Source of the DNA: Streptomyces xanthii
GTDB lineage: Bacteria > Actinomycetota > Actinomycetes > Streptomycetales > Streptomycetaceae
DNA: 64,000 bases
Direction of reading: 5' to 3'
Assembly: GCF_014621695.1 (NCBI RefSeq)
Contig: NZ_CP061282.1
Span: forward strand, 62,001 to 126,000
Shown here piece after piece: positions 30,415 through 34,140 of the stretch. The translations under genes and the position numbers were made by a program. The notes beneath the pieces are model-generated. The model worked only from the letters and a program-made list of their open reading frames with translations, ran no database searches and had not been told where the DNA came from. Each line of letters opens with the position of its first letter. Within the stretch, counting starts at the first letter, position 1.

Positions 30415-32463
30415 ATGCCCGCGATCACCGTGGCACGGCACGATGCGGTGGTGACGAATCGGAAGAAGGAAACCGGGCCTTCGGGGATACCCGCCGACCG
30501 GCGGGCTGACTTCCTCGAACTCATGCTGCTCTCCCGCGAATGCGACCGCCGGTCGGGAATCGTGCTGCGGCAGGGAGAAGCCTGGTTCCACATTTCCTCC
30601 GCCGGGCACGAAGCGCTCGCCGCCCTCTGTGAGCTGCTGGAACCCGAGGACCTGATCGTCCCTCACTACCGTGACCGCACCCTGCTGCTGGCCCGCGGAA
30701 TGGACCCCGAGGCCCAGGCTCGCGACCTCATGGCCAAGGCCGCCTCGCATTCCGGCGGACGCAATATGAGCGCCCATTTCGGCCACCGCGCAGGGAATGT
30801 CTTCTCGGTCGCGAGCCCGACCGGAAGCCAGTGCCTGCCGGCCGTCGGAGCCGCCTGGGCCGCGCAATTGCGGCACCGCGACCAGATCGTCGTCTGCTCC
30901 ATCGGCGACGCCTCCACCCGGCAGGGTGAATTCTTCGAGGCGGTCGCCTTCGCCGTCGAACGCGGGCTGCCCGTCCTCTTCCTCGTCTCCGACAACGGCT
31001 ACGGCATCTCCACGCCGACCGCCGACATGTCGCCCCGGGCCCTGGGACTGCTCCCCTCCGACCGCACCACCGTCGTCGACGGCGCCGACCCCGACGCCGT
31101 GCACGCCGCCGGCCGGGCCGCCCTCGACGCGATCCGCGGCGGCCAGGGCCCCCACGTCCTGTGGTGCGAACTGGACCGGCTCGACCCCCACACCTCCTCC
31201 GATGACCACCGCGTCTACCGCAGCCCGGAGGACCTGGCCGCGCTGCGCGATCCGGTGGACATCTTCGGCGCCCGCCTCGTCGAGGAAGGCGTCGTCGACG
31301 AGGCGTGGATCGAGCGGACCGCGGCCCGGCACGCCGTCGACGTCGAAGCGGTCTACGCGCGCGTCGCCGCCGAGCCGGCCGCCGACCCCAAGACCGTGAT
31401 GGACCACCTCTTCGCCCCCGAGCCGGCCGTCACGGGCAGCACGGAGGCGTGTGCCACGCAAGCCGATGCCGCGCCGCTCGCCGAACCGTGTGGCGGGACC
31501 ATGGTGTCCGCCGTCAACCGGGCCCTGGCCACGGGACTCGCCCGCCACCCCGAACTCGTCCTGTTCGGCGAGGACATCGACGACCCCAAGGGCGGCGTCT
31601 TCGGCTTCACCAAGGGGCTCGGCGAGGCCGCGGGCGAACGCATGACCAACGCGCCCCTCGCCGAGGCCACCATCGTCGGCGCCGCCGTGGGACTCGCCGC
31701 CGCCGGAATGCGCCCGGTCGTGGAGCTCCAGTTCGTCGACTTCGCGGGACCCGCCTGGAACCAGATCGCGGCGCAGCTCACCACCCTGCGCTGGCGCAGC
31801 CTCTCCGCGTGGCAGTGCCCCGTCGTCCTCTACGCGCCCTGGGGCGGATACCTGCCCGGCGGCGGGATCTGGCACAGCCAGAGCAACGAGAGCCTGTTCA
31901 CCCACCTGCCCGGCCTCCGGGTCGTCGTCCCCTCCACCCCGGAGGACACCGAGGCCGCGTTCCTCGAGTCGTTCACCGCGCCCGACCCGACGCTCGTCCT
32001 GCTGCCCAAGCACCTCATGCGCCGCCGCCGCGAACCGGCCGCCCGGCCCGCACCGGCCCTCGGCGCCCGCACCCTGCGCGGCGGCACCGACGTCACCGTC
32101 GTCACCTGGGGCAACGGCACCGAACTCGCCCTGGACGCCGCCGACGCCCTCGCGGCCGACGGCGTCACCGCCGACGTGATCGACCTGCGCTGGCTCGTAC
32201 CCCTGGACCGCGAGACCGTCGCCGCCTCCGTACGCCGCACCGGCCGCCTCGTCGTGGTGCAGGAGGACAACCGCACCAGCAGCTTCGGCGCGGGACTCAT
32301 CACCGAACTCCTCTCGCGGGACGACGAGTTCTACTCGCTGCTCGCCCCGCCGCGCCTGGTGACCCGGGAGGACGTGCACGTCCCCTTCCACCCCGACCTC
32401 GAGCGTGCCGTGCTGCCCGCCGCCGACGACGTGGTCGCGGCCGTCCGTTCCGTACTGGCCTGA
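30415..32463 (+). CDS. Fused alpha-beta E1 component of a 2-oxoacid dehydrogenase
   Basis: A ~682-aa thiamine-diphosphate E1 with alpha and beta chains in one polypeptide. The alpha half has EAWFHISSAGHEALAA, GGRNMSAHFG and the ThDP motif IGDAST ... DNGYGIS at ~163-196. The beta half starts near 360 (MVSAVNRALATGLARHPELVLFGEDIDDPKGGVFGFTKGL) and includes APLAEATIVGAAVGLAAAGMRPVVE and WGNGTELALDAA. It decarboxylates a branched 2-oxoacid, most likely 2-oxoisovalerate, and acylates a lipoyl domain. The gene is 21 nt upstream of a PKS whose N-terminus is an E2, so the pair forms a dedicated starter supply. ATG 30415 preferred (GGGGG upstream); GTG 30451 possible. E3 is not encoded here. Confidence 0.88.
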   Translation: MPAITVARHDAVVTNRKKETGPSGIPADRRADFLELMLLSRECDRRSGIVLRQGEAWFHISSAGHEALAALCELLEPEDLIVPHYRDRTLLLARGMDPEAQARDLMAKAASHSGGRNMSAHFGHRAGNVFSVASPTGSQCLPAVGAAWAAQLRHRDQIVVCSIGDASTRQGEFFEAVAFAVERGLPVLFLVSDNGYGISTPTADMSPRALGLLPSDRTTVVDGADPDAVHAAGRAALDAIRGGQGPHVLWCELDRLDPHTSSDDHRVYRSPEDLAALRDPVDIFGARLVEEGVVDEAWIERTAARHAVDVEAVYARVAAEPAADPKTVMDHLFAPEPAVTGSTEACATQADAAPLAEPCGGTMVSAVNRALATGLARHPELVLFGEDIDDPKGGVFGFTKGLGEAAGERMTNAPLAEATIVGAAVGLAAAGMRPVVELQFVDFAGPAWNQIAAQLTTLRWRSLSAWQCPVVLYAPWGGYLPGGGIWHSQSNESLFTHLPGLRVVVPSTPEDTEAAFLESFTAPDPTLVLLPKHLMRRRREPAARPAPALGARTLRGGTDVTVVTWGNGTELALDAADALAADGVTADVIDLRWLVPLDRETVAASVRRTGRLVVVQEDNRTSSFGAGLITELLSRDDEFYSLLAPPRLVTREDVHVPFHPDLERAVLPAADDVVAAVRSVLA

Positions 32464-32484
32464 CCGCAGGGAGAAGAAGCGCAG

Positions 32485-34140
32485 ATGACCACGGAATCCG
32501 TGCTGTCCGTTCCGCGCCTCGGCGAAGGGATCGTCGAGGTGCGCATCGTCCGCTTCCTCAAGCGGCCGGGCGACACGGTCGCCAAGGACGAGGTCGTCTA
32601 CGAGATGGAGCACGACAAGGCGGCCGTCGAGATCGAGTCCCCCGTGGCCGGCACCCTCGAGGCGTGGCTCGTCGAGGTCGGCGACACCGTACCGATCGGC
32701 GGCTCCGTCGGCCGGATCGTGCCCCTGCGCCAGGACGTGCCCGGCGGGGAGGGCGGGGCCGGTGTGGCGGACGCGCAGAGCACGGCCGCCGCCGGGCCGG
32801 AGGCCCCCGGCGCGTCCGCGCAGGGTGTGCCCGGGCGGCCCGCCGGGACGCGGCGCATCCCCCCGCGCACCCGGGCGCACGCCCGCCGCCTCGGCATCGA
32901 CGAGAGCCTGCTGCCCGGCATCCCCGCGCAGGGCACCAGCCTGATGCCCGCCGACCTCCAGCGCTACATCGCCGCGCGGAGCGGTGACGAGACGGAGCCG
33001 GCGGAGAGCGGGTGCACCGACGTCGCCCAGTCCGACCGCCAGCGCGCCCTCAACCGGGCCCTGCTCGCCGCCCGCGACCAGGTCGTCCCCGCCGTCGTCT
33101 CCGCACTCGTCGACGAGGAGACACTCCAGGCCGCGCTGCGCCGGCACCGCGGCACCCGCTTCTCGACCGCCTTCCAGGCCTTCGCCCACCACGCGGCCCG
33201 CTGCGCGGCGGCGCCCGAGGGAGCCCGGCTGCGCTCGCGCCGCCTCGACCCGGGCACGCTGCGGGTGCACGAGCACGTGGACCTCGGGATCGCCGTGGCC
33301 ACCGACGCCGCCGACCTCACCGTCGCCGTGGTGCGCGCGGCCGACACCCTGCCGGCCGAGGAGTTCGACGGCCGCTACGCGCAGGCCGTCGAGGAGGCGC
33401 TCGGCGGCCGGTCGCAGGCCGACGGCAGCGTCACCCTCCTGCTCTCCCACCTGGGCGACCGGGGTCCGGACCTCGCGGTGCCGGTCGTCGTGCCGCCCGC
33501 CGTCGCGACCCTCTTCCTCGGCGGCGTCGACGACTCCGGGACGCGCCCCGTGCGCCGGATGGTGCTCGCCTTCGACCACACCGTGCTCAACGGGCGGGAC
33601 GCGTCCGCCTATCTGGAGGCGCTGACCGCGTCCCTCGGCGCGGCCGGCACGGCCGACGACATCCCCGAGGCCCCGGTGCCCGCCGTGACGGCCGCGGCTC
33701 CGCGGGGCGATGTTCTGGAGCGGCTCGTCGACCTGGCGTCCGAGATCCTGGGCCACCGCGTGGACCCCGCGCGCCCGCTCGGCGAACAGGGGCTCGACTC
33801 CGCGCGTGCCCTGCTCCTGATCCGCGAGACGCGCACCGCGTTCGGCGTCCCGCTGCCCGCCACCGCCGTGTGGCGCCATCCGACGCTCGAGGCCCTCGCG
33901 GAGCTGCTGTCCGAACGGACCCAGGACGAGCGGACCCAGGACGAGCGGACGTCCACACCGCAGCATGCCCCGGCGCACAATCCGATTCCGGAACAGGCAC
34001 TGTCCCAGGGCAACGGCCCGGGTACGGGCAGCGGCCCCGGCATCGGCACGGGCAGCGCAACTGCGACGGGCGCGGGCACCGGCACCGGCAGGGGCGCCGA
34101 CGACCAGGACCCCCGCACCGACATCGGCACGGGGACCGGC
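32485..34140 (+). other. Loading region: lipoyl, subunit-binding, E2 catalytic and ACP domains
   Basis: Within the first PKS. The lipoyl domain carries Lys45 in the EMEHDKAAVEIES turn, the classical lipoylation site. RIPPRTRAHARRLGID begins a peripheral-subunit-binding domain that would hold E1. The CAT-like domain ends with FDHTVLNGRDASAYL, where His365 is the expected catalytic base; the usual DG is NG (Asn369). ACP1 has GLDS with Ser439. A Gln/Asp/Glu-Arg-Thr repeat and a long Gly-Thr linker lead to KS1. Suggested reaction: acyl from E1 to Lys45-lipoamide, then by the E2 domain to ACP1 rather than to CoA. Confidence 0.85.

Follow-up and report, generated by a model that had tools for sequence, protein, structure and literature searches.

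The window analysed here is a stretch of 64,000 nucleotides from Streptomyces xanthii (positions 62,001 to 126,000 of contig NZ_CP061282.1, which is 361,615 bases long and is called C2 below). It contains a gene for a fused 2-oxo acid dehydrogenase E1 component and, directly downstream, a gene for a polyketide synthase (PKS) with an E2 acyltransferase and an acyl carrier protein (ACP) at its N-terminus. A sequence-only reading had proposed that the two form a 2-oxo acid dehydrogenase complex built into the starter end of a streptogramin A assembly line, and this proposal was followed up computationally.

The E1 gene and the N-terminus of the polyketide synthase

The E1 gene (30415..32463, + strand) encodes a fused 2-oxo acid dehydrogenase E1, probably of the branched-chain type, with its alpha part at ~30520-31389 and its beta part at ~31501-32433, both on the + strand. 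The open frame (30406-32463) matched the Pfam families E1_dh (6.8e-46), Transket_pyr (1.1e-27) and Transketolase_C (1.2e-28). Translation may start at ATG 30415 or at GTG 30451, the latter giving a length equal to that of the nearest homologue (670 aa). The stop codon lies 21 nt before the ATG of the PKS gene at 32485, and both this spacing and the fused E1 are as the sequence-only reading had described them. Among solved chains, 1um9, the beta chain of a 2-oxo acid dehydrogenase, scored best at 202 bits, followed by a 2-oxoisovalerate dehydrogenase beta chain at 186 bits and by pyruvate dehydrogenase beta chains at 181-182 bits; the best NCBIfam models were those for pyruvate dehydrogenase E1, with every score far under the cut-off. 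The 2-oxoisovalerate specificity proposed earlier draws weak support from the second score, while the pyruvate chains and the NCBIfam models pull the other way. Assignment to the branched-chain type is based on the Photorhabdus kinship described below and on the streptogramin starter, and not on the E1 sequence alone.

The downstream gene (32485..47586, + strand) encodes a trans-acyltransferase (trans-AT) hybrid of PKS and nonribosomal peptide synthetase (NRPS) of 5033 aa. Its front end comprises, all on the + strand, a lipoyl domain (32503..32709; Biotin_lipoyl, PF00364, residues 7-75, 2.3e-15) with Lys45 at codon 32617-32619, a peripheral-subunit-binding-like domain (32851..32988, residues 123-168), an E2 acyltransferase catalytic domain (33013..33651, residues 177-389; 2-oxoacid_dh, residues 180-384, 2.9e-13) with Asn369 and with His365 at codon 33577-33579, and a starter ACP (33706..33921, residues 408-479; PP-binding, PF00550, residues 412-475, 8.8e-11) with Ser439 at codon 33799-33801. 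The first ketosynthase (KS1; 34150..35439, + strand) follows and retains its active-site Cys in the motif DTACS. The domain search suggested by the sequence-only reading as a check recovered the lipoyl, E2 and ACP domains, and Lys45, His365 and Ser439 stand where that reading had placed them. An AlphaFold model agreed with this layout, with lipoyl strands mostly at pLDDT >90 and a helical ACP.

Conservation was assessed in an alignment of the window protein with 21 of 24 database homologues (P0008, P0011 and P0016 were left out). Lys45, His365, Asn369 and Ser439 were invariant (22/22), and Ser321 of the E2 domain was kept in 21 of the 22 sequences, with Thr in the remaining one. The E1-binding domain claimed between the lipoyl and E2 domains may be present: helices were predicted at residues 127-135, 140-145 and 155-168, and Arg130 (22/22) and Arg134 (21/22) were conserved, yet PF02817 was not matched even at E<=5. 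The E2 motif reads HxxxNG and not HxxxDG. That this marks a dead E2 was considered and rejected, since the titles of structures 1dpb and 1dpc place Ser558, His610 and Asn614 in the mechanism of the Azotobacter E2p, and plain E2s across the wider clade often carry Asn as well. With a lipoylatable Lys (PF00364), a chloramphenicol acetyltransferase (CAT)-like domain carrying His and Asn, and an adjacent E1 of cognate type, the region has the features expected of a putative E2.

Aligned over its full length, the PKS shares 62% identity with S. virginiae protein P0015, which likewise begins with lipoyl, E2 and ACP domains and so provides the proposed comparison with the N-terminus of a known streptogramin A PKS. 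Pfam found no AT domain in the PKS (no Acyl_transf_1 match), a discrete AT lies 10.8 kb outside the window, and the cluster contains a 3-hydroxy-3-methylglutaryl-coenzyme A (HMG-CoA) synthase cassette. Identity, cassette and trans-AT arrangement all argue for the streptogramin A type assigned before. The cluster also encodes a fused glutamine amidotransferase / chorismate-binding enzyme (24905-27049 of the window), which fits the aminophenylalanine precursor of a group B streptogramin.

Distribution and kinship of the front end

Residues 1-480 were searched against 5.8 billion proteins and 1152 candidates were scored, with only proteins of 0.55-1.75x query length admitted, which excluded short relatives. 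All 24 PKS-sized homologues over threshold, S. virginiae P0015 among them, contained lipoyl, E2 and ACP domains. With all 24 in agreement and an independent DNA scan recovering the same order, the front end is not a chance arrangement. Within the genus, 6 of 295 sampled genomes matched at E<=1e-45, the source genome of the window counted, and a fused E1 stood directly upstream in six of their seven loci, the exception being a griseoviridin-type locus (L138; the type, named after the S. griseoviridis locus, is a putative assignment). Four of 396 genomes matched in a phylum sample, with the ACP present in the window's genome and in that of L138, and plain E2s in the other two. A plasmid collection gave 63 matching records, of which 4 covered at least 80%, all from Streptomyces.

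The DNA scan of a genome collection yielded 129 relatives, from which 78 loci were kept; the locus counts given here refer to these. E2 was followed by ACP in the same frame in 27 loci, the frame-broken L032 not being counted. Eleven of them were fused to a ketosynthase (KS) or PKS and had a fused E1 directly upstream (L023-L031, L033, L075), three were griseoviridin-type PKSs without an adjacent fused E1 (L034, L035, L039), twelve were Photorhabdus operons in the order E1, E2-ACP and KS (Pfam identified the ACP in L061, and its motif was present in 12/12), and the remaining one was from Hyalangium (L079). In all of the 27 except L034, L035, L039 and L079, so in 23, the frame of a fused E1 stopped 9-35 nt ahead of the first lipoyl codon matched. 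Among the other 50 loci, for which the scan showed no ACP, a fused E1 was found upstream in 12, E1 and E2 shared one frame in 3, and E2 stood beside a split E1 in 10.

A careful tree of 42 selected E2 rows placed the E2s of streptogramin PKSs, griseoviridin-type PKSs, Nocardia and Photorhabdus behind a 99/96 branch, a set that excludes Hyalangium. Partner E1s of this set lay behind a branch of 99 in a quick tree of 40 selected rows; the branch also holds ten further E1s, two identical to grouped rows and the other eight of unexamined neighbourhood. First KS domains of the set lay behind a branch of 98 in a quick tree of 42 rows, with a long-branch warning. Among the matches listed, the Photorhabdus KS was 50% identical to KS1 and 40-41% identical to three of the other four KSs of the window. 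Nocardia panacis holds an intermediate form, with E2, ACP and KS in a single protein of 1017 aa. Because the E1, E2-ACP and KS1 trees, the E1 adjacency and the Nocardia intermediate agree, the first part of the PKS seems to have been inherited as a single cassette.

P. luminescens has three places with E1_dh matches; the fused E1 of ~670 aa is found only in the E1/E2-ACP/KS operon, the others lying in frames of 938 and 628 aa, and for this reason we take the operon as bkdABC. The window has the fused E1 directly upstream, an E2 within the ACP-bearing clade and a next KS that is kin to the operon KS, and the streptogramin A PKS resembles an assembly line to which a Bkd starter cassette has been joined. 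Order and grouping are shared for all three parts. Photorhabdus, however, has three separate proteins, one extension step and a leucine-derived starter, whereas in the window E2-ACP-KS forms part of a complete PKS-NRPS, and valine is the presumed source of the starter. According to passages of PMC4578411, photopyrone was made in E. coli with ppyS, bkdABC and ngrA, and BkdABC was needed, with which passages of PMC4901931 agree; the same passages of PMC4578411 state that the phosphopantetheinyl transferase NgrA activates an ACP domain inside BkdB, that this activation is required, and, in a proposed scheme, that BkdABC forms a 5-methyl-3-oxohexanoyl thioester. In passages of PMC5313471, bkdABC is linked with isopropylstilbene as well as with branched fatty acids.

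The loading mechanism had been called unusual; it has precedents in photopyrone formation through a BkdB with its own ACP and in the 2007 proposal on bkdAB given below. The new element is the kinship of E1, E2-ACP and first KS with the Photorhabdus operon, the cassette itself being already known from there. No description of an E2 domain fused to a PKS was found in the titles, abstract openings and passages searched, which is not proof of absence, as the primary papers on virA, isopropylstilbene, the pristinamycin cluster and bkdAB lay outside that search; papers covered by title or abstract opening alone, PMC5819245 ('E2 component') among them, may describe such a fusion.

Loading of the starter unit

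Rather than receiving its branched starter from CoA, the PKS probably generates this unit from a keto acid derived from valine and charges itself with it directly. In the proposed route, the thiamine diphosphate (ThDP)-dependent E1 would decarboxylate 2-oxoisovalerate and reductively acylate a lipoyl group on Lys45 of the PKS, and the E2 domain (His365, Ser321, Asn369) would hand isobutyryl on to the fused ACP, at the phosphopantetheine of Ser439. KS1 would then accept isobutyryl from the ACP and condense it with malonyl units supplied by the trans-AT, while a chromosomal dihydrolipoamide dehydrogenase (E3) would reoxidise the lipoyl arm. The E3 partner would be chromosomal because all five places with E3-type matches were on contig C1 and none was on C2. 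We consider it likely that E1 and E2-ACP form a dedicated starter-loading 2-oxo acid dehydrogenase of this kind, with the ACP, not CoA, as the main acceptor; a firmer view is held back by the griseoviridin-type PKSs without a fused E1 and by an E1 substrate that the sequence leaves unsettled.

A search of the genome contigs found no second E2 match on C2, the sole one being that fused to the PKS, and two E1/E2 sets on the chromosome. An extra, distant E1 beside the PKS therefore needs a reason. These chromosomal bkd-like operons, for a housekeeping branched-chain 2-oxo acid dehydrogenase, have the E1/E2 chemistry in common with the window; unlike the window, they have a split E1 and an E2 without ACP, and in the tree of E2s a 100/100 branch sets them apart. 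They could already supply free isobutyryl-CoA, which argues against an ordinary E2 in an odd place, whose CoA product would reach the ACP or KS1 by other means and for which the fusion would only keep the supply close. Upstream of KS1, Pfam also found neither an AT domain nor one of an acyl-CoA ligase in either the E1 or the PKS protein; an ACP stands beside the E2 in 24/24 PKS-sized homologues, and the discrete Photorhabdus E2 also bears an ACP whose activation is required. Plain E2s do use CoA, isobutyryl-CoA is the starter named in the papers covered, PMC9636800 among them, and bkdABC feeds branched fatty acids as well (passages of PMC5313471), and we give this explanation a modest share of the probability, well below that of direct loading.

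The strongest sequence pointer to the ACP over CoA, which we read as a hint, is the Arg that follows the catalytic His: 46 of 48 plain E2s have it, against 0 of the 32 rows of the ACP clade, all 32 of which kept the His and the Asn. This count was made on 86 rows, of which 5 fragmentary or broken ones were dropped and Hyalangium (Arg kept) was set apart, with housekeeping Streptomyces E2s outside the alignment. Loss of a C-terminal anchor was also tried as a mark of ACP-bearing E2s and was dropped, since a clear anchor is likewise missing from the 12 plain relatives listed. The retained residues, together with Ser321 (21/22, Thr in the other), leave very little room for a dead scaffold that, like an E3-binding protein (E3BP), would only tether E1 or a chromosomal complex, even though an E2-like E3BP component (6h60) was among the fold matches and the E2 Pfam score was modest (50 bits).

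E2 chemistry is reversible, and the domain might instead be a loading acyltransferase that moves isobutyryl, or acetyl in griseoviridin-type lines, from CoA to the ACP, with E1 and the lipoyl domain auxiliary or relict. The griseoviridin-type PKSs, which have E2-ACP and no adjoining fused E1, fit this; the invariance of Lys45 (22/22), which is kept in the griseoviridin type too, the fused E1 beside 23 of 27 E2-ACP loci and the matching E1 and E2 trees do not, and we rate it below free isobutyryl-CoA as an unlikely account.

Several points count against direct loading. Pyruvate E1s are nearly as near to the fused E1 as branched-chain E1s, so that its sequence does not decide the substrate class, and the subunit-binding domain is without Pfam backing. 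The Arg loss is one event or few, as it falls in a single clade whose 32 rows include 12 closely similar Photorhabdus copies and a few other near-duplicates. In griseoviridin-type relatives the catalytic residues are intact and no fused E1 adjoins the PKS; E2-ACP may also be charged otherwise. CoA or diffusible acyl products are possible, as branched fatty acids have been attributed to BkdABC too, and passages of PMC9636800 give isobutyryl-CoA as the suggested virginiamycin starter. For VirA and SnaE1, the first PKSs of virginiamycin M and pristinamycin II, of which S. virginiae P0015 shows the lipoyl-E2-ACP front end of the window, the parts of the literature covered have loading with isobutyryl-CoA and leave the E2 part unmentioned.

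Other systems bear on direct loading. Peng 2012 is reported to describe the two-component transketolases NapB/NapD (naphthyridinomycin) and QncN/QncL (quinocarcin), in which a ThDP-dependent E1 reportedly passes its product through lipoyl to ACP without CoA; unlike in the window, they deliver a two-carbon unit from a ketose to an NRPS, and the likeness is one of mechanism. In a 2007 bkdAB study, bkdA disruption reportedly abolished virginiamycin M and not S, which, if right, favours a dedicated channel, because the window's genome, at least, has two chromosomal E1/E2 sets besides. In its title, as cited in passages of PMC9636800, that paper proposes that the bkdAB genes of S. virginiae are a plausible source of the virginiamycin M starter.

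If direct loading holds, the assumed isobutyryl-CoA loading of clinically used streptogramins would be replaced by on-line oxidative decarboxylation, and their assembly lines would be linked by common descent to the Photorhabdus stilbene / photopyrone starter system. E1 with lipoyl-E2-ACP-KS1 would be a portable cassette for charging PKSs directly from 2-oxo acids, with acyl choice in E1 and E2 and not in an AT, a handle for starter-unit engineering. In E2 trimers the active sites lie where two subunits meet, and KS domains are dimers; as three-fold and two-fold parts are fused here, the assembly line itself could be a 2-oxo acid dehydrogenase complex with ACP replacing CoA as acceptor, with E2 trimers as the core of a multi-megadalton particle, closed or networked, on which E1 and E3 would dock, an extension that we regard as speculative and rather improbable.

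Variant loci and genome context

Griseoviridin-type proteins (L034, L035, L039, P0026) keep lipoyl-E2-ACP with the Lys, His, Asn and Ser conserved; L138 also keeps it, and no fused E1 is directly beside L034, L035, L039 or L138. Either another E1 serves these PKSs or their E2 loads from CoA. The griseoviridin starter is presumably acetyl, and the idea that the starter tracks the E1 type, with a pyruvate E1 for griseoviridin, was considered and found unsupported, as no dedicated E1 could be named for the S. griseoviridis PKS. The split E1 pair of S. griseoviridis is nearest to the TRM70350 split E1 (alpha) and to chromosomal Bkd-like and phenylglycine-type E1s, and has its own E2 24 nt downstream.

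The Hyalangium locus (L079:9986-11332) encodes a lipoyl-E2-ACP protein of 448 aa that stands alone; its gene follows one resembling a crotonyl-CoA reductase and precedes PKS and NRPS genes, and the locus showed no E1. Its E2 groups with plain E2s (98/98) and keeps DHR, and a tree placing it with the other E2-ACPs was not rejected (p-AU 0.233); it is possibly a second, independent ACP fusion. In verrucomicrobial loci (L093:2-2998, L095:504-3539, L098:7862-10924), E1, lipoyl and E2 domains lie in one open frame of ~1000 aa.

Two cassette copies (L141 and L145, genome G521) lie near the two ends of one contig of 8.5 Mb, a placement that would suit terminal repeats, and the copy in Streptomyces sp. 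SW4 (L032) is in broken frames in the assembly. Elsewhere on C2, E1 alpha and beta genes are followed by a thioesterase gene (L017:13669-18673; C2:178669-183673), an arrangement like that of phenylglycine (pgl) genes, on the contig whose sole E2 match is the PKS-fused one. On the chromosome, a KS-AT-ACP PKS lies near a partly E2-matching protein of 296 aa and a phosphopantetheinyl transferase (L022:4960-11224; C1:4927959-4934223). Within the window, a ParA-like ATPase gene and two D5_N-type genes (718-1644, 5222-7780 and 8660-10078) stand beside the antibiotic cluster, fitting a plasmid.

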